Of a DNA stretch of 21,701 bases, positions 9,589-17,776 are shown piece by piece. Numbering within the stretch: position 1 is the stretch's first letter; each line of letters begins with the position of its first letter. The stretch covers positions 1 to 21,701 of IMG/VR virus record IMGVR_UViG_3300017743_000162; one strand, given 5' to 3'. The notes under the pieces were generated by a model that was given only the letters and a program-made list of their open reading frames with translations, made no database searches and had not been told where the DNA came from. Source of the DNA: a virus. The position numbers and the translations under genes were made by a program.

Positions 9589-9773
9589 TATATCACCATA
9601 TTATGTTCTTCGCGAAGAATCCTTTTGTAAGGCCCTCCGGGATTTGCATCCATAACTTCTTGAACTAACTTCATTTTATCATATAAATCACCACACTTAT
9701 CTTCACTCTTTCGACATCTCCACAGTGCAGTAACTATGTAGTCGAACTCTTGTTTATCAATTGGTAAGTCCAT
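9588..9773 (-). CDS. Small conserved protein of unknown function
   Basis: This encodes 61 residues: MDLPIDKQEFDYIVTALWRC, then RKSEDKCGDLYDKMKLVQEV and MDANPGGPYKRILREEHNMVI. It is a short, probably helical protein with two cysteines that are too far apart for a CxxC zinc site. I recall similar short proteins between gp43 and uvsX in T4-like cyanophages. Its start overlaps the end of gp43 by one base and its stop overlaps the next ATG, so it is translationally coupled on both sides. Confidence 0.75.
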   Translation of the reverse strand: MDLPIDKQEFDYIVTALWRCRKSEDKCGDLYDKMKLVQEVMDANPGGPYKRILREEHNMVI

Positions 9774-12274
9774 TATGTAAAAAATAGTTCAAGGTTTACA
9801 GTTTTTTCGACATTCCACCCAATAGCATCAAGTATTGCTTTAAGTGGTTCTAAGAAACTCTTCTCAAATTGTAGTTCATAATCTATGTATTTGTCAAGTT
9901 TAAGTTCTCTTGGAAAGTCCTGAATAAAGGATACTACATTTTCTTGGATGATGTTTGGTTTTTTAAGATATATGAATTTGATCTTTTCACCATTACCAAT
10001 CAGTGAATACTTCTTGTCAAGTTTATTCTTTTTAATATAGAAATTAAAAAGCAATGCCCCACGAGCATGTATCGGTGTGCCTTTACAATAGATGTCTGTG
10101 CGTGAATGATACTTCTTGACATTTGATACTGTGCGAGGGAATGCAATCTCTTCTGGTGGAAGTGTTTTGAACTTTGTACGACATTCATCAATATAATCAA
10201 TCACTTCCTCTTCAGTTCCATTCATCATAATCTTGAGACCATTCTTAATCATTGTGCGACAAGGTGCAGGAGTTGAGGATTTAACTGCCTCAATACCCAT
10301 CATCTTGAGATTAGGTTCTTCATATCTTACACCCTCACTATCCCATACATTTAGAATATATCTTTTCTTTGCTGTCCATATACCACGCTCTGCGATGTTT
10401 TCCCTTTTCATAAACATCATTTGATCATAAGCATTTACATAATTTGCTAATTCTTTGTATGATGTGTCGATGAAGGGTTCAAACTTCTCTTCACAAATTT
10501 TATCGATGAACGAAACAATGCTCTCAGCATCCTTCTCTCTATCTTTGTAGACAACATCCACCAAAGGGCCAAGATTGAGATAGATTGAATCAGTATCACT
10601 AGCAATAACATAATCGGTATCTTCTGTTTTAAGGATTTTATTTAGATAAGCATTCATCTTATTCTCAATCCATCGAATACTTACCTGACCTGAAAGAGTG
10701 ATTGCTTCAGCATTTGCTAGTTTGTAATAACGAAAGTACTGATTGCCGATAGCACCATAAGCACTATTAAGTTGTATCTTCCTCGCCATTTGAATGTTGT
10801 TACATCTGGAAATCTCTTTCTCAAGAGTTTTCGTCTTCGTCTTTTCATATTGTTGCTTTGCCTCCAACATCTTCTTTTTATATATTGTTCGATCTTTGTA
10901 GATCTTTTCCATCAATTCAGGTAAGAATCCACGAACATCTTTACGATACATTGCACCATTTGCACAGACAGCACTGTCTTTATACAATTCAAAGTTTACA
11001 TCTTCTGCGAGGATTTTATCAACAGTAGCAGAGGGATGCCTTTGATCAATAAGAGTTTCTGGAGAAATATTATACTGCATAATCAAATGCGGATATAGAG
11101 AGTTAAGGTCAAAACTCACCACCCAATCATACTTTCCGGGAATTGGTTCTTTAACATATGCACCTGCATACTTTTCATTCTTTTGTGATCGATTCTTTGG
11201 AGGAATAACAATATTTCTTTTTTTAAGATAATTATAGATGATGGTATCCCACATACGAACCTGCGAGAATACATCAACATAGTTTGCTTTTGCATCATAT
11301 GCCATTGTAATTGCAAGTTCAATCAACTTCATCTTATCTTCCAAGCGGTCAACAAGTTCCACATCAATGATGTTGTATTCAACAAACTTCTGCCAACCTT
11401 GTGTATAAAAGTCCTTGAATGTATCAAACTCACTGTGATCTAACTTCTTCTGTCCAAGTTCAACACTTGCAATATAATCCAAACGATAGGACTCTTGTGC
11501 CTTGTATGTAAATTTCTTGTAAAGATTTAAATAATCAAGTTGAGTAATGCCACCAACATCATATGCAATATTCTTACGACCTGCAATATAAATCTCATCT
11601 TCAGTAACAAGGCCCCAAGGAGAAAGTCTCTTCATTAACTTAGAACCAAGAACTCTTTCCAATCTACGCGATAGATAGGGGATATCATATAATTCAATGT
11701 TCCAACCTGTAATTACTTCTGGAGTATTCTCTTCAATCATCCACCAGTTGATAAAAGCATTTAGAAGTTCATACTCTGAATTGAATGACTTGTAAATGAC
11801 ATTATCTTGTTTGTTATTAAATGGCCCCTGACCCCATGTGCGAATCTGTTTTGTTGTATAGTCCTGTATTGATATAAGTAGTATTTCTTCTGCCGAAGAT
11901 TCTACATCAGGGAATCCATTCTCAGACTTCACCTCAATATCAAGTGTAGTTAATTTAATCTTGCTTATATCAAACTTGACTTCTGGTTCCGGATACATCT
12001 CAGAGATGTATTGATAGATATATCTGTCATTTCCGTAGATATCAAAATTCTGTACACCATCATATCTTTTGAAGAACTCACGACAATCACGAACTGAACC
12101 GGGATTGATTGGTTCAACAGATTCACCAGTAAGAGTCTTATACTTAGTATTCTTTTTTGAAGAGACGAAAAGAGTTGGGGCAAAAGATTCTCGTACCATG
12201 AAATGTTTACCATTCTCATAACCACGAACTAAAAAATTATTTCCAACTAATTGAACATTAGTATAGAATCTCAT
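9773..12274 (-). CDS. 43: DNA polymerase gp43 (family B)
   Basis: This is the replicative DNA polymerase with proofreading. The 833-residue protein is somewhat shorter than T4 gp43 (898). Exonuclease motifs are Exo I LDIEV (D112, E114), Exo II NIELYD (N192, D197) and Exo III YNIID (Y300, D304). Polymerase motifs are A DLNSLYP (from D389), B KIQLNSAYG (K499 to G507) and C SDTDS (D560, D562), with a KKRY segment downstream. The C-terminus VNLELFFT looks like a clamp-binding tail, the place where T4 gp43 contacts gp45. No intein or split is seen. The ATG at 12274 overlaps the stop of the endonuclease gene by four bases. Confidence 0.97.
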   Translation of the reverse strand: MRFYTNVQLVGNNFLVRGYENGKHFMVRESFAPTLFVSSKKNTKYKTLTGESVEPINPGSVRDCREFFKRYDGVQNFDIYGNDRYIYQYISEMYPEPEVKFDISKIKLTTLDIEVKSENGFPDVESSAEEILLISIQDYTTKQIRTWGQGPFNNKQDNVIYKSFNSEYELLNAFINWWMIEENTPEVITGWNIELYDIPYLSRRLERVLGSKLMKRLSPWGLVTEDEIYIAGRKNIAYDVGGITQLDYLNLYKKFTYKAQESYRLDYIASVELGQKKLDHSEFDTFKDFYTQGWQKFVEYNIIDVELVDRLEDKMKLIELAITMAYDAKANYVDVFSQVRMWDTIIYNYLKKRNIVIPPKNRSQKNEKYAGAYVKEPIPGKYDWVVSFDLNSLYPHLIMQYNISPETLIDQRHPSATVDKILAEDVNFELYKDSAVCANGAMYRKDVRGFLPELMEKIYKDRTIYKKKMLEAKQQYEKTKTKTLEKEISRCNNIQMARKIQLNSAYGAIGNQYFRYYKLANAEAITLSGQVSIRWIENKMNAYLNKILKTEDTDYVIASDTDSIYLNLGPLVDVVYKDREKDAESIVSFIDKICEEKFEPFIDTSYKELANYVNAYDQMMFMKRENIAERGIWTAKKRYILNVWDSEGVRYEEPNLKMMGIEAVKSSTPAPCRTMIKNGLKIMMNGTEEEVIDYIDECRTKFKTLPPEEIAFPRTVSNVKKYHSRTDIYCKGTPIHARGALLFNFYIKKNKLDKKYSLIGNGEKIKFIYLKKPNIIQENVVSFIQDFPRELKLDKYIDYELQFEKSFLEPLKAILDAIGWNVEKTVNLELFFT

Positions 12275-12684
12275 TGTTTCCCCTCAAGATATACAATTAT
12301 TTTTTTGATGCCCTCTATATCATCACCATGCAAACCCATAGATGTATTACATTTTTTACATATCCAACCACGAAACTCTTCTTTGACTGAATCATGATCA
12401 AAACACACACCTGACATTTCTTTATCATGAGTCATTGAAATGCCACAACATTCACAGGGAGTTCCTGCAGGAGGTTTTGTATATGTTCCTTTTTTCTTGA
12501 TAGCAACTCTTTTAGTCCTATCAGAATGTGTCCGACATGATATACAGATCTTACGACGAAATCTTTGTGAACCATAACAATTCCAACCAAAAGCATCAAT
12601 AGGTTTTATCTCCCCACATTTATTACACTTTCGAGTTGAATCCTCTTCTAATTCAATTCCAAGTGCTTCAGCAAGTGCATTCAT
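12271..12684 (-). CDS. Endonuclease VII-like nuclease with extra zinc ribbon
   Basis: This 137-residue protein is a member of the recombination endonuclease VII family (beta-beta-alpha-metal fold). T4 endonuclease VII (gp49) resolves branched DNA before packaging. The core is visible: CECC (C77, C80), CFDHD with D96 and H97, FRGWICKKCN with C109, C112 and N113. The cysteines would hold zinc, and the Asp-His and Asn match the catalytic Asp, His and Asn of the family. An additional N-terminal ribbon has CNKC (C20, C23) and CISC (C47, C50). It overlaps gp43 by four bases. It could be the phage resolvase or a freestanding homing-type nuclease; the sequence alone does not decide. Confidence 0.85.
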   Translation of the reverse strand: MNALAEALGIELEEDSTRKCNKCGEIKPIDAFGWNCYGSQRFRRKICISCRTHSDRTKRVAIKKKGTYTKPPAGTPCECCGISMTHDKEMSGVCFDHDSVKEEFRGWICKKCNTSMGLHGDDIEGIKKIIVYLEGKQ

Positions 12685-12947
12685 CAGGCAATCAAATCAA
12701 GATACTCAGCCAGTATAGCAGATGTTGGAGTAACTAGTGTAAGAATACTGTCAGAATGTATCATCATTTCAGTCTGTGATGTATAATCCAACCAAGTTTC
12801 TAGTTTATATTCATCATTTTCTTTGACCATTTTATATGGTTTGATCATTTTACAATCAGGGCCACCAAGTTCGGTATCCATTTCCATGATCTGTGATATC
12901 AATAAATCACCATTCTTAAGTAGTAAGCAATTAATAATCTGATCCAT
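12684..12947 (-). CDS. Small Sm-like beta-barrel protein, paralogue of the next gene upstream
   Basis: This encodes 87 residues, MDQIINCLLLKNGDLLISQI then MEMDTELGGPDCKMIKPYKMV and a C-terminal strand region (DSILTLVTPTSAILAEYLDL). The order of a K-x-G-D/E-x-x-I-x-x-hydrophobic first strand pair, a later xxPxxV strand and a terminal VTP segment repeats in the proteins at 12931-13239 and 20945-21229. That pattern resembles the strand layout of Sm/LSm folds, but the similarity is weak and by eye. The start overlaps the upstream gene by 17 bases and its stop overlaps the endonuclease start as TGATG. Confidence 0.7.
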   Translation of the reverse strand: MDQIINCLLLKNGDLLISQIMEMDTELGGPDCKMIKPYKMVKENDEYKLETWLDYTSQTEMMIHSDSILTLVTPTSAILAEYLDLIA

Positions 12948-13239
12948 TTATCTTCTCCGTATACATTTTTTTGACGCTTTCAATTGGTTCGACTAAGGCA
13001 ACTACCTGATTTACAGATACAGGTACATCTTCCTCATCACTAATTATAATCCAACTTGTCAGTGTAATTTCAACTGATGTCTTTGGATCTTTTTCTTCGG
13101 TGAGATATACCGGTGAGTTTATAACAACCTTATGAGGTTTGTTAAACAGATATGCGATTGGTTTATCTTCAGATACGATTTCTTTCATATCTGCAATAAT
13201 CTGATCACCTGATTGAAGAACTGCAAGTTTGATTGACAT
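12931..13239 (-). CDS. Small Sm-like protein, first gene of the polymerase operon
   Basis: This encodes 102 residues: MSIKLAVLQSGDQIIADMKE, then a hydrophobic strand YLFNKPHKVVINSPVYL, a strand EITLTSWIIISDEEDVPV, and VNQVVALVEPIESVKKMY. The SGDQIIADM motif parallels SGEDVIADI in the protein at 20945-21229, and LKNGDLLISQI in the downstream neighbour, so these are three diverged copies of one family. The family recurs in T4-like cyanophages with no assigned function that I know. It is preceded by an AU-only hairpin ending one base before the ATG, and by a strong promoter about 95 bases upstream. Confidence 0.75.
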   Translation of the reverse strand: MSIKLAVLQSGDQIIADMKEIVSEDKPIAYLFNKPHKVVINSPVYLTEEKDPKTSVEITLTSWIIISDEEDVPVSVNQVVALVEPIESVKKMYTEKINGSDY

Positions 13240-13240
13240 C

Positions 13241-13256
13241 TTTAATAATAATTAAA
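13241..13256 (-). promoter_or_regulatory. AU-only hairpin abutting the start codon of the first polymerase-operon gene
   Basis: On the minus strand TTTAAT and ATTAAA pair (6 bp, loop TATT), and the stem ends one base before the codon ATG at 13239. No clear purine-rich ribosome site is left upstream. In T4, RegA binds AU-rich sequence at start codons, and gp43 binds a hairpin before its own gene, so a translational operator is a reasonable hypothesis. Confidence 0.35.
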
Positions 13257-13332
13257 ATGGCAGATTCCTATAGCCGCTATTCCTGAACCTACCAAAGGGG
13301 AACACCGCAGCCAGTATTTCTCTGACTCTTTT

Positions 13333-13360
13333 ATTATACCATAAAAAAAGGGATCGTCAA
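13333..13360 (-). promoter_or_regulatory. Near-consensus sigma70-type promoter for the polymerase operon
   Basis: On the minus strand TTGACG (13360-13355) is followed after 16 bases by TATAAT (13338-13333), with an extended -10 TGG directly before it. Both boxes are at or near consensus for host sigma70/SigA. Transcription would start near 13325 and give a leader of about 85 bases before the ATG at 13239. The -35 box lies in the loop and 3' stem base of the terminator hairpin at 13349-13367. It fits early expression by host RNA polymerase of gp43, uvsX, gp41 and mazG. Confidence 0.72.
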
Positions 13361-13367
13361 GATCCCT
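13343..13367 (-). terminator. Rho-independent terminator after the 105-residue gene
   Basis: On the minus strand AGGGATC and GATCCCT form a perfect 7-bp stem (13367-13349) with loop TTGAC, followed by a run of seven T (13349-13343). It begins inside the stop codon of the 105-residue gene. This is the cleanest intrinsic terminator in the window and ends the gp62-regA-Hsp20 unit. Confidence 0.85.
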
Positions 13368-13683
13368 AAAGTATTGCTTTCATAATAAACTCATTAGATA
13401 ATATAGGATCACCAAATAGATCTAATTGTATTTGATCTGCATCTACCTCAACATCATCCTTATTCTTACGACAATGCAACCAGTAATAAGTACCATTCTC
13501 CCTCTTATAGAAGAAACTGGTGTTGTGTGAGTCTAGACATGCTACATGAAGCACATATGGATATGTTACCTTACGATTTGGATCTGGTTTGGTTGACTTA
13601 CCCATGCTTCCATACATGGGTTCTTTACCACTACCATGAGCAGAAGGTGTGTCTCTTATGACATGCCAATCATAACCTGTCAT
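13366..13683 (-). CDS. Unknown 105-residue protein downstream of Hsp20
   Basis: The product begins MTGYDWHVIRDTPSAHGSGK and contains a Gly/Ser/Lys-rich loop, then a compact beta-like region (VTYPYVLHVACLDSHNTSFF, followed by GTYYWLHCRKNKDDVEVD) and an acidic C-terminus (QIQLDLFGDPILSN). I see no catalytic motif. QLDLFGD resembles the QxxLxLF clamp-binding type of peptide, so an interaction with the gp45 clamp is conceivable, but that is a weak motif. It starts two bases after the Hsp20 stop and ends in the terminator, so it is the last gene of that unit. Confidence 0.7.
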   Translation of the reverse strand: MTGYDWHVIRDTPSAHGSGKEPMYGSMGKSTKPDPNRKVTYPYVLHVACLDSHNTSFFYKRENGTYYWLHCRKNKDDVEVDADQIQLDLFGDPILSNEFIMKAIL

Positions 13684-13685
13684 AT

Positions 13686-14120
13686 TTAAAGGTAATCCTT
13701 TCTTGCATGATGATCTGGTACTATCTTACCCAACTTAACGGTAAGAAGTCCATCTTTGAATTGAACCTCTCGGACTTCAACATCTTCTGAAAGTGCCCAT
13801 TCTCTTGTGAAAGATCTCTGAGCCAGTCCTTGATGGACATACTCGGATCCTGTCTCCTTAGTTTCTTTCTGTCCCTCAACAATAAGTTTTCCATATTCAG
13901 TGTAGACCTTAAGTTCTTTTTTACCAAATCCTGCAAGAGCAATCTCAAGTAATGACTCAACATTATTTACATGAATTAGATTGTAAGGTGGATAGTTTGT
14001 TGCGGTTTCGTAACTATTAAAAAAGCGGTCAAGGTAATCATCCATACCAATCCCGTTCTTTGAAATTATTTTCATCAACTCTGGTAAGTTTGCAGAGTGA
14101 TATCTCTGTAGTGAAGTCAT
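13686..14120 (-). CDS. Small heat-shock protein Hsp20 (alpha-crystallin type)
   Basis: Small heat-shock proteins hold unfolding proteins in an ATP-independent way. The 144-residue protein shows an alpha-crystallin domain like IbpA/HspA: YPPYNLIHVNN (43-53), LLEIALAGFGKKEL (57-70), GKLIVEGQKE (77-86), YVHQGLAQRSFTREWALSED (94-113) and FKDGLLTVKLGKIVP (121-135). A 40-residue N-terminal arm precedes it; the short C-terminal tail lacks an IxI motif, which may limit oligomer size. Hsp20 genes are characteristic of T4-like cyanophages. The start at 14120 has the strong ribosome site AAGGAG, and a structured leader lies upstream. Confidence 0.93.
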   Translation of the reverse strand: MTSLQRYHSANLPELMKIISKNGIGMDDYLDRFFNSYETATNYPPYNLIHVNNVESLLEIALAGFGKKELKVYTEYGKLIVEGQKETKETGSEYVHQGLAQRSFTREWALSEDVEVREVQFKDGLLTVKLGKIVPDHHARKDYL

Positions 14121-14218: not shown

Positions 14219-14659
14219 TTATTCAGTTTCTTCTACCTTTTTCTTCTTACTTCCTATATTATACTTTGTTTCCAATATCCATTCACCCTTATCCTTATAA
14301 GATAATACTTTGATTTGATTTAAAGGTGCTACATCTTGTATAGAATCGGCACTTACAATACCAACAAGTCCCCAATCTACCAATAATTGTGCTATGCGAT
14401 TTCTTCTTTGTACATCATTTGAAGTAAGATTGGCATGCTTACCATCTAATGCAAATAATTCTTTGAAGTGTACTAAAAAATACCTTCCCTGTTTGTGTAA
14501 AATATGACAAGACTGATATATTTTCTTTTCTTTTCTTGATGCAACACCAATACGAGTCAGTGTTTCTCTCACCTTCAGAAAATCATCTGGTTCATTTAAT
14601 GTCACTTCAACCATTTGGTTTGGATCCCAATTCACCTGTGGTTCCTTAAGAACACTCAT
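14219..14659 (-). CDS. regA: RegA translational repressor
   Basis: RegA binds AU-rich sequence around start codons of early phage mRNAs and blocks translation. The family core starts at residue 16 (MVEVTLNEPDDFLKVRETLTR) and shows the strongly conserved YQSCHILHKQGRYFLVHFKELF and LDGKHANLTSND...RRNRIAQLL. I keep the upstream start at 14659, because GGAGGA lies six bases before that ATG while the inner ATG at 14614 has only a distant GGGA. This gives a 15-residue N-terminal extension relative to T4 RegA. The C-terminus is basic (GSKKKKVEE). The ATG overlaps the gp62 stop (ATGA). Confidence 0.93.
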   Translation of the reverse strand: MSVLKEPQVNWDPNQMVEVTLNEPDDFLKVRETLTRIGVASRKEKKIYQSCHILHKQGRYFLVHFKELFALDGKHANLTSNDVQRRNRIAQLLVDWGLVGIVSADSIQDVAPLNQIKVLSYKDKGEWILETKYNIGSKKKKVEETE

Positions 14660-15045
14660 TGTCTTCCTCCAATATCAAGTTTAGATTTAATAAAATTCAG
14701 TTGTTCTTGTGTAAGAATCTTTAGAATCTGTTCCGCTTTTGCATTACTACATTCATAGTATGTCTTGACACTATCAAGTTCTTTGATTTTGTCTTTACGA
14801 AGCCAAGGAGAAAACCTTCGTTTTTTCCTCACTATATGTATAAAAAAGTCATGTTGCATCTTCTTTGGTAGAAATGGATACTTATTCATTTCATTTGCAA
14901 ACATAACTGTGTCAAGATGTCCTGATAAACACTTGTTAATTATGAAGGAAGGATATTCTTTTTCTATTGATGGATCTTCATCAATTTGATTATTTTTGTT
15001 TAGGTTGATCGAGTTCAACCAATCTTTCAGTTCCATCAGTTTCAT
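14656..15045 (-). CDS. 62: Clamp-loader small subunit gp62
   Basis: gp62 with four gp44 subunits loads the gp45 clamp. Characteristic segments are [58 protein letters not shown] and [11 protein letters not shown] choose the ATG at 15045 ([10 protein letters not shown]) or the one at 15036; the longer frame from 15096 would read antisense-free but out-of-family residues through the conserved end of gcvP. The product has 126-129 residues, shorter than T4 gp62 (187) but usual for marine T4-like phages as I recall. Its start lies inside the gcvP gene by 47-56 bases, and no good ribosome site is seen. regA follows with an ATGA overlap. Confidence 0.9.
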
Positions 15046-17776
15046 TATCAAAGTAGGAAGAACATGAGCAGACAAGATTACGATCACCGTAAACATTATC
15101 TATTCTTGCTACTGCAGGCCAAAACTTACTAGTTTGTTCTACAGGATATGCTGCTTGTTCTCTGGTATAATTATACACCCATTCTGTTGAACTTACAACC
15201 CTTGCAGTATGTGGTGAATTCTTCACTATCTCAGGTATTGCAAATATTTCTCTCTTAATCATCTCCATTGCTTTTGCAAATCTTTTCAATTCATCTAAAG
15301 ATTCTGATTCAGTTGGTTCAACCATCATCGTATTTGCAACTGGCCATGATAATGTAGGTGCATGAAAACCATAGTCCATTAGTCTCTTTGCAATATCCTC
15401 TGCTGTAACGGGAAAATTGCGACAATCAAATATACATTCATGTGCGATTCGATCATTATCTCCTCGATATAATACTTTAAAATATGGATCAATTTGATGT
15501 GCCAACCAGTTAGCAGATAGTAAAGATACTTCACTTGCCTTTCTGAGTCCTTCTCCACCCATCATTCTTATATACATCCAACTGATAGGTAAAATTGATG
15601 CACTACCATATTCTGCTGATGATACTCGATGAGTCACAAAAGGTGTTAGATGTTCTGCAACACCAATCGGGCCAACTCCGGGGCCTCCACCACCGTGAGG
15701 AATACAGAATGTCTTATGTAAGTTAAGGTGACATACATCTGCACCATAGTCACATGGTTTTGCAAGACCAACCTGTGCATTTAGATTTGCACCATCAAGA
15801 TATACCTGACCACCATTCTCATGAACGATTCTACAAATATCTTTGATAGTTGGTTCAAATACACCATGAGTCGATGGGTATGTAATCATAATACATGAAA
15901 GTTCAAATGTATTCATGATTGCTTTCTTCTCTAAATCTTTTAAATCAATATTTCCACTATCATCACACTTGACTGGAACTATCTTCATGCCCGCCATGAC
16001 AGCACTTGCAGGATTAGTTCCATGTGCACTCTCCGGTATAAGACAAACATTTCTCTTATCATCATCGTTACTTCTATGGTAATCTTGTATTGCTAATAGA
16101 CCTGCATACTCTCCTTGTGATCCTGCATTTGGTTGTAGTGATATAGAATCAAATCCTGTGATCTCACATAACCATCCTTTTAATTCCTTGATAATAATAT
16201 CATAACCAATTGTTTGAGATGCTGGTGCAAATGGATGAATGTTTGCAAACTCTGGCCATGAAACTGGCATCAGTTCTGATGCTGCATTTAATTTCATAGT
16301 GCAACTGCCAAGTGGCATCATACCATTTACTAATGAGAAATCTTTTGAAACTAACTCATTAATATATCTCATCATATTTGTTTCACTATGATAATTGTTA
16401 AATACTTCTTGAGTCAACCAAGGTTTAGTTCTCTCTGGCACACCTAACCAATGATAATCTCCGATTGAATCGATCACATGATCAATAGTGTCAAATTTAT
16501 TTGTAATATCTAATTGAGAATCTACAAGTTGTTTTAGTTCTTCTAATGTCGTACATTCATCTAGTGTAATTAAAGTGTGACCGTCTTCATAACGAACATT
16601 AAATCCTTCTAAAGCAAGAAAACTTTTAAAACGAACAGTATCAAATCCTTCAGACTGATCAACTTCTATCCCACACCATGCTAATGCCTTTTGTAGGGTT
16701 TGCCTATATCTTAATACTCTGGTTGCTATTCTTTTCAGACCTTCCGCACCGTGGTAAGCAGCGTAAAAACCTGCCATATTTGCGAGGAGTGCTTGAGCAG
16801 TGCATATATTGGATGTTGCTTTGTCTCGTCTTATGTGTTGTTCCCTTGTCTGTAATGCTAGTCGTAGTGCTTTATTACCTTGGGAGTCTAGAGACTGCCC
16901 TACAATTCGTCCGGGAATCTTTCTCTTATACTTTTCATTTATTGCAAAGAATGCTGCATGAGGCCCACCAAATCCCATAGGTATACCAAACCTTTGCATA
17001 CTACCAACTGCAATATCAAATCCCATCTCCCCTACAGGTTTCATTAACACCTGTGCCATTGGGTCTACAACCGCAATCTTCATACACTTATATACATCTG
17101 CAATACGAATAAGTGCATTCGGATCACGAAGTCTACCTTTATTATTTGGTAACTGAACTAATAATCCAAAAGCATCATCAAAATCTTCTAGTGCTGCTAC
17201 AGTATGCCAATCAAGTAATTTTATTTCTATCCCTAAAGGTTTTGCTCTTGTTTCTAATACTTGTAATGTTTGAGGAAATACTTCACTATCAACCAAAAAT
17301 ACATTTTTCTTAGATGCACTATGAGCAAGTAACATTGCTTCTGCTGCTGCAGTTCCTTCATCTAACAAAGATGCATTTGCTATTGGCAACCCAGTAAGTT
17401 CTGTAATCAGTGTTTGATAATTAAATAATGCTTCTAATCTACCCTGAGATATCTCTGCCTGATATGGTGTATAAGATGTATACCATGCAGGATTCTCAAA
17501 AACATTTCTTTGTATTACTGGTGGTGTAATTGTACCATAGTATCCTTGACCAATTAAGGATCTTTTAACTCTATTCTGACTTGCTATTTCTTTTAATTCA
17601 GTAAGTGCCTCTTGCTCACTACACCCATCAGGTAGTTTATAATCCCCTCTTAATAATATAGAATCTGGAACTATTTGTCTGACAAGTTCATCCAAACTAG
17701 AAAGACCCAAATCCTCTAGCATTTGAGTCTGTTCTGCCTCTGATGGGCCGATGTGTCTAGAAATAAATTCTGTCAT
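14990..17776 (-). CDS. gcvP: Glycine decarboxylase P-protein (GcvP), full length
   Basis: GcvP is the PLP enzyme of the glycine cleavage system: it decarboxylates glycine and passes the aminomethyl group to lipoyl-GcvH; with GcvT and Lpd the system yields CO2, ammonia, NADH and methylene-THF. The 928-residue protein (E. coli 957) is intact: N-terminal RHIGP (7-11), [16 protein letters not shown] (100-115), GGPHAAFFA (270-278), second half [10 protein letters not shown] (489-498), [11 protein letters not shown] (582-592) and the PLP lysine in LNLHKTFC (K688) followed by a Gly loop. The conserved end [10 protein letters not shown] is followed by about 18 extra residues overlapping gp62. The ATG overlaps the upstream stop as TAATG. 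No gcvT, gcvH or lpd is in the window, so host partners are needed. Confidence 0.97.

Follow-up and report, generated by a model that had tools for sequence, protein, structure and literature searches.

The window analysed here, a 21.7-kb virus record, is of the cyanophage type, with genes for a family B polymerase, RegA, clamp-loader and Hsp20, and DNA like it is present in phages of Synechococcus and Prochlorococcus, P-SSM2 (Kyanoviridae) among them. On its minus strand, a sigma-70-type promoter (13333-13360; -35 TTGACG at 13360-13355 and -10 TATAAT at 13338-13333, with a gap of 16 nt) is near-consensus at 11 of 12 matches and opens a gene-free leader of 87 nt, measured from the predicted start at 13326 to the ATG at 13239, which confirms the leader of about 85 bases described from the letters of the window. 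Behind the leader, also on the minus strand, come genes identified through Pfam: one for a DUF6561 protein of 102 aa (12931-13239), a second DUF6561 gene (12684-12947), an endonuclease VII-like gene (12271-12684) and a gp43-type polymerase gene (9773-12274). On the other side, regA (14219-14659) had been placed directly upstream; it is in fact two genes from the leader, with a 105-aa ORF (13366-13683) and hsp20 (13686-14120) intervening. The upstream unit ends in a terminator-like hairpin (13349-13367, minus strand) that contains the -35 hexamer of the leader promoter, a fusion seen by eye in several relatives as well. Farther along, the phage contig harbors a full-length gcvP, encoding the glycine cleavage system P-protein (14990-17776, minus strand; GDC-P, 570.6 bits).

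Composition and conventional folding gave limited guidance to the leader. Its G/C-rich segment, already noted in the sequence-only reading, is real in its surroundings, as G+C of 13260-13319 is 50% and every other 60-base window between 13000 and 13600 has 25-43%, but coding windows farther away reach 48% (13820-13879), so that G+C alone is weak proof of structure. Ordinary folding of the leader, with a program that does not model pseudoknots, did not set it apart from shuffles (43 of 200 folded equally well; z -0.63), and a pseudoknot is the structure that comparison yields. The A/U hairpin before the ATG (13241-13256, minus strand) does appear in the predicted fold, as had been claimed, but it occurs in two of the 11 folded leaders of the DUF6561 type, the window's own locus (L001) and one with the same spacer (L033), and is missing from the other nine; because it is not conserved, we judged it incidental and dropped it. 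Conservation is pronounced elsewhere in the leader. From the -10 box to the end of the last helix described below (S2), a stretch of 83-84 bases, identity is 92.8-94.0% in P-SSM2, AG-345-F15 and AG-345-E02, for which mean identity over the whole 1.7-kb region (all aligned pieces, leader included) is 74-79%; in S-SKS1 the same stretch is 77.8% identical. The genes behind this conserved element differ, being an ORF annotated purM in P-SSM2 and small ORFs in S-SKS1.

Comparison of related loci shows that the leader belongs to a conserved RNA family built of a P1 hairpin followed by an H-type pseudoknot, in which helix S1 has 6+2 pairs and helix S2 has 9 pairs. In the window (minus strand throughout), P1 occupies 13310-13326, pairing GUCAG (13326-13322) with CUGGC (13314-13310) around an AGAAAUA loop. 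S1 spans 13275-13307, with 13304-13299 paired to 13283-13278 and, beyond a G.G mismatch (13305/13277), two further pairs, 13306-13276 and 13307-13275. S2, the pseudoknot helix, spans 13258-13294 and pairs 13293-13285 with 13267-13259, to which U13294-A13258 can be added. Loop 1, CCUU (13295-13298), lies between S1 and S2, and loop 3, GCUAUAG (13268-13274), lies 5' of the S2 3' arm and is nearly invariant, a property that the search patterns mostly fixed.

Family members were collected by pattern scans of IMG/VR, of which the core pattern gave at least 120 stretches and three further viral patterns gave 45, at least 120 and at least 120, and all family counts are lower bounds. The patterns fixed UUC/GGAA of S2 (the three inner pairs), parts of the S1 3' arm and most of loop 3, so that invariance at these bases is partly a matter of how the sequences were selected, and left free the S1 5' arm, the outer S2, P1, UGC and CCUU. 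A first alignment of 66 cores (64 distinct) supported 15 pairs in two crossing helices, with 99.6% of cells paired and 113 doubly changed cells compared with 31.7 in shuffles. For a second alignment (A2), 89 cores were drawn for diversity from 191 distinct ones, and 84 of these were aligned together with the window row; those left out were L001 (the window's own locus), three with longer loops (L111, L126 and L320) and L142. Across these 85 diverse cores, 99.4% of the cells in 17 pairs are paired, doubly changed cells number 256 relative to 69.3 after shuffling, and the covariation score is 0.571 relative to 0.205, all in related sequences, so that the cells do not represent independent events. 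When the register is slid, no more than 15-51% of cells pair. S1 is paired in 100% of cells with both-side changes at five of its eight pairs, and S2 in 98.9% with both-side changes at six of its nine. The count of pairs changed on both sides is itself not clearly above shuffles, either in the 66 cores (8 vs 6.9; 88 of 500 shuffles) or in A2 (11 of 17 vs 10.5; 282 of 500).

The pair beyond the G.G mismatch, 13306-13276, covaries (GC in 218, UA in 71 and UG in 11 of 300 elements), UGC precedes S1 in 300 of 300 elements, and loop 1 reads CCUU in 298 of 300 even though CCUU is absent from every search pattern that gave matches. The spacer measures 3 nt at all 126 sites examined after the core-pattern search, although that pattern allowed 2-10. 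The covariation is strong enough to give the fold directly, and the suggestion of a structured RNA in the leader passed the check proposed with it, namely covariation and conservation in the leaders of relatives.

The distance between the promoter and P1 is conserved among relatives. A hairpin of at least five pairs closing on the base before UGC is found in 67 of 78 unique upstream sequences as opposed to 9% of shuffles, with arms that vary and hairpins from 12 to more than 100 nt, and some members carry large inserts inside P1. With P1 chosen without regard to the promoter, the distance from the end of the -10 box to the first P1 base is exactly 6 nt at 74 of 79 unique loci. In a larger set the exact gap recurs at 200 of 230 loci, 13 being at 5 or 7 nt, eight elsewhere and nine having no -10 box. 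P1 falls short of five pairs in 67 of 297 loci within the 45 nt examined; a joint search over 160 nt, which unlike the independent choice of P1 makes use of the promoter, succeeded for 259 of 289 loci, with P1 and a -10 box 5-7 nt from it, and missed 30; after shuffling it succeeded for 5 of 289. Since bacterial transcription commonly begins about 7 nt past the -10 box, the RNA is predicted to begin on the first paired base of P1.

Several observations concern P1 and its surroundings. Inserts recur in the P1 loop (L076, L128, L059), among them GGC-UUCG-CUACC, GGGCA...GUAAGUCC and GGGGCUGAGUAUAAGCAGC..., and words of the T4 RNA rnaD (GUCGCUACCGGUAAGUC) resemble them, a likeness that may be due to chance. 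In one subtype (L279/L288) P1 extends over 119 nt; in L288 (about 2196-2606) some 240 nt after S2 contain no same-strand ORF of at least 40 aa, the subtype has no Rfam match, and it is perhaps a larger RNA. By eye, the promoter and P1 5' arm seem to lie within the 3' end of an upstream coding gene in S-SM2, Bellamy, L054 and L384, and RNA and protein may therefore share sequence there.

The elements come mostly from IMG/VR contigs, and the named carriers are cyanophages or Kyanoviridae records. A model of the element core (R1), which scores clear members at 48-78 bits, finds one copy in the window at 73.5 bits. Clear R1 matches were obtained in 18 of 20, 7 of 12, 20 of 20 (seven already in the first set) and 1 of 16 whole records, giving 39 distinct records, 38 of them single-copy and one (G012) with two copies; most of the searched records were chosen for carrying the element, and those from IMG/VR may be incomplete. 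Two contig pieces (L174, L384) each contain two copies 1.2-2 kb apart on one strand. Among 15 cyanomyovirus records chosen by flanking-gene similarity, the element is present in two, S-SM2 and Bellamy, and is thus a minority trait in this small sample; weak R1 matches in S-CAM9 (11.2 bits) and DSL-LC03 (10 bits) were rejected as false, the motif being absent on reading. Among 20 long element-bearing records from IMG/VR, 14 have genes of the psbA/psbD family, which mark them as cyanophages, and the other six have none on the available piece. A single pattern scan covering 84,980 species genomes returned no convincing host copy: its 17 matches, none titled as a cyanobacterium and none above 24.8 bits with R1, are taken as chance.

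The family is matched by no Rfam 15 model in the window or the 24 loci scanned. None of the 4227 Rfam 15 families reached its gathering score in the window, and the best permissive match over the leader scored 22.1 bits against a cut-off of 45. In 16 loci all 47 matches are to tRNA, tRNA-Sec or wcaG, each lying clear of the element, and eight more loci gave no matches. The portions of the open-licence literature covered by our search contain no description of the element. The cyanophage RNAs that appear there are CfrI, PhotoRC-II, wcaG, manA, the glutamine riboswitch and abiF, with CfrI described as a psbA-linked antisense RNA (PMC9964418, PMC9602691, PMC12197685). Among the closest parallels in kind are manA (RF01745) and wcaG (RF01761), which one report presents as conserved structured RNAs of marine cyanophages before varied genes and as riboswitch candidates (PMC2864571), and the element resembles them in being a conserved structured marine-cyanophage RNA upstream of varied genes. 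Identity with manA was rejected, as its covariance model matches only a separate site, in three of six records: in P-SSM2 the manA RNA lies at 142837-143034, just after regA and about 1 kb before the element, two AG-345 records also have manA matches, and the window has none at gathering score. The wcaG model matches other places in L003, L018, L022 and L103, never the element.

By eye the element shares the words GUUCA and GGAAC with the glutamine riboswitches RF01739 and RF01704, and the glutamine-II riboswitch is likewise a pseudoknot. These models were nonetheless rejected, as in none of five records did they match the element, even with E allowed up to 10; in P-SSM2 a glutamine riboswitch match does occur, elsewhere in the record. 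The stable RNAs rnaC and rnaD of T4 are described as small phage RNAs with 'yet unknown functions' (PMC9697503). In the T4 annotation both are neighbours of tRNA-Arg within the tRNA cluster and lie after it, whereas the element stands before its tRNA. They were rejected as members, as R1 scores at most 3.8 bits on them, and R1 found nothing in the whole T4 record.

What stands downstream of the element varies. At least 305 distinct elements were collected, at least 300 of them with an S1 of at least five pairs; eight of these lie at contig ends, leaving 292 contexts. A tRNA begins within 30 nt after S2 in 154 of the 292, at a distance of 2-4 nt in 145 cases, and is tRNA-Arg-UCU in 123, tRNA-Pro-UGG in 29 and tRNA-Lys and tRNA-Val in one each. 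Tight tRNA spacing is usual at these loci, where 219 of 687 neighbouring same-strand tRNA pairs are 0-4 nt apart. An ORF starts within 60 nt of S2 in another 105 contexts, 44 of them at 16-20 nt, and in 33 there is neither tRNA nor near ORF. The non-tRNA partners comprise DUF6561 genes, a purM-region gene and other ORFs. S-SM2 has the order element, tRNA-Pro, ORF with SVEYWQ, and in L054 and L039 the element directly precedes an SVEYWQ-like ORF without a tRNA, indicating that ahead of similar ORFs the tRNA is present in some phages and absent in others. In three loci (L036, L102, L466) an ORF of about 153 aa, HNH-like by eye, appears to interrupt the tRNA-Arg just after an intact element. For 119 of the 123 non-tRNA members whose flanking sequence is long enough, a same-strand ORF of at least 40 aa begins no more than 400 nt away. 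A second promoter with 11 or 12 of 12 matches stands just past the element at seven loci (L352, L407, L131, L003, L047, L090, L263), and in the 123 non-tRNA contexts one with at least 10 of 12 within 80 nt is found in only eight, compared with two in shuffles. A U-rich stretch (five T in eight) directly after S2 is present in 50 of 298 elements.

These patterns led us to favor, tentatively and at somewhat less than even confidence, a reading in which the main working form of the element is an independent small RNA, some 70 nt long, released from its transcript. We favor it because the RNA persists while its partner changes, is usually single-copy and, in its tRNA contexts, offers no start codon to control; further points in its favor are the covariation, the fixed spacing of promoter and P1, the tRNA that is present or absent ahead of similar ORFs, the seven loci with a strong second promoter and the large P1 inserts. 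Our confidence is held down because the ORF gap, the same-strand neighbour in 119 of 123 members and the U-rich tails keep cis-acting roles alive. Transcription starting on the first paired base of P1 would give a 5' end without free nucleotides, a known guard against attack by pyrophosphohydrolase and RNase E. Where a tRNA follows 2-4 nt behind S2, RNase P would set the 3' end of the RNA, and where an ORF follows, an endonuclease cut with trimming in the A/U-rich spacer may do so. The near-invariant UGC, CCUU and GGC-N-AUAG would serve to contact a protein or RNA of the host or the phage. Whatever gene follows would be a passenger, which is our proposed reason why it changes while the RNA stays. 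Arguing against the passenger is the ORF start at 16-20 nt in 44 of 105 cases, a spacing that a mere passenger need not show, and arguing against an independent RNA are the rarity of second promoters (8 of 123), the two-copy cases (G012, L174, L384) and the 50 of 298 elements in which a U-rich stretch makes terminator-like use of S2 possible.

The same start and spacing could also serve a function in cis, and the foremost alternative, though rather unlikely, is a 5' cap, where the sealed end and pseudoknot would shield the following tRNA or mRNA from 5'-dependent decay by RppH, RNase E and RNase J. The predicted start on the first paired base fits such a cap, as do the short gaps between S2 and the payload, which measure 2-4 nt for 145 of 154 tRNAs and frequently 16-20 nt for ORFs (44 of 105). 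A general shield, however, is harder to reconcile with an element usually present once per record and protecting different genes in different phages, and the near-invariant loops exceed the needs of a plain 5' stem.

Those loops, set in a compact pseudoknot, do resemble small riboswitch folds, and with the U-rich stretches and the cyanophage precedent of the manA and wcaG candidates they suggest a cis-regulatory leader switched by a small molecule or a phage protein (riboswitch, attenuator or operator), which we consider unlikely. A U-rich stretch after S2 is lacking in most elements (248 of 298), DNA rich in A+T is expected to contain some, no common theme is evident among the downstream genes, the Rfam glutamine and manA models have no match at the element, and the 154 of 292 members that precede a tRNA have no start codon there to control. 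The variety of contexts also weakens the particular operator proposed in the sequence-only reading, an autoregulatory site for RegA or gp43 at the head of the polymerase operon, although the structure itself passes the conservation check. That operator lacks support: two genes separate regA from the leader, conservation does not extend to the A/U hairpin, and the element stands directly before a tRNA in more than half of its contexts or, elsewhere, before varied ORFs. T4 RegA operator sites, moreover, lie at or next to the start codon, and the window has 18-19 nt between the end of S2 and the ATG.

In most loci the element comes straight after its promoter, and it frequently heads a tRNA array or, in the window, a set of replication genes; such a position would also suit an RNA antiterminator of the HK022 put kind, which modifies RNA polymerase just after initiation. 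Like the element, put is structured RNA near the start of a phage transcript, but it differs in consisting of simple hairpins at two sites. The element is usually present once per record and does not consistently precede long operons, as the small ORFs in S-SKS1 illustrate, which makes this role improbable. A self-cleaving ribozyme trimming its own transcript, to which a pseudoknot with many near-invariant bases might point, is the least credible of all, as no Rfam family, ribozymes included, matches and the predicted constant 5' end requires no cleavage.

Returning to the independent small RNA, we can offer a fuller account, itself doubtful and less probable than the general reading: a pseudoknot RNA with a sealed 5' end, freed by RNase P from tRNA precursors, that would target host machinery in trans, be it the ribosome, an RNase or RNA polymerase, while cyanophages infect their hosts throughout the oceans. 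The comparison brings to light a large RNA family of ocean viruses that is often fused ahead of a tRNA. Its predicted start on the first base pair, together with a tRNA a few nucleotides behind, makes for clear predictions that can be tested in cultured phage, and the family may shed some light on the long-standing puzzle posed by the stable small RNAs next to tRNA-Arg in T4.
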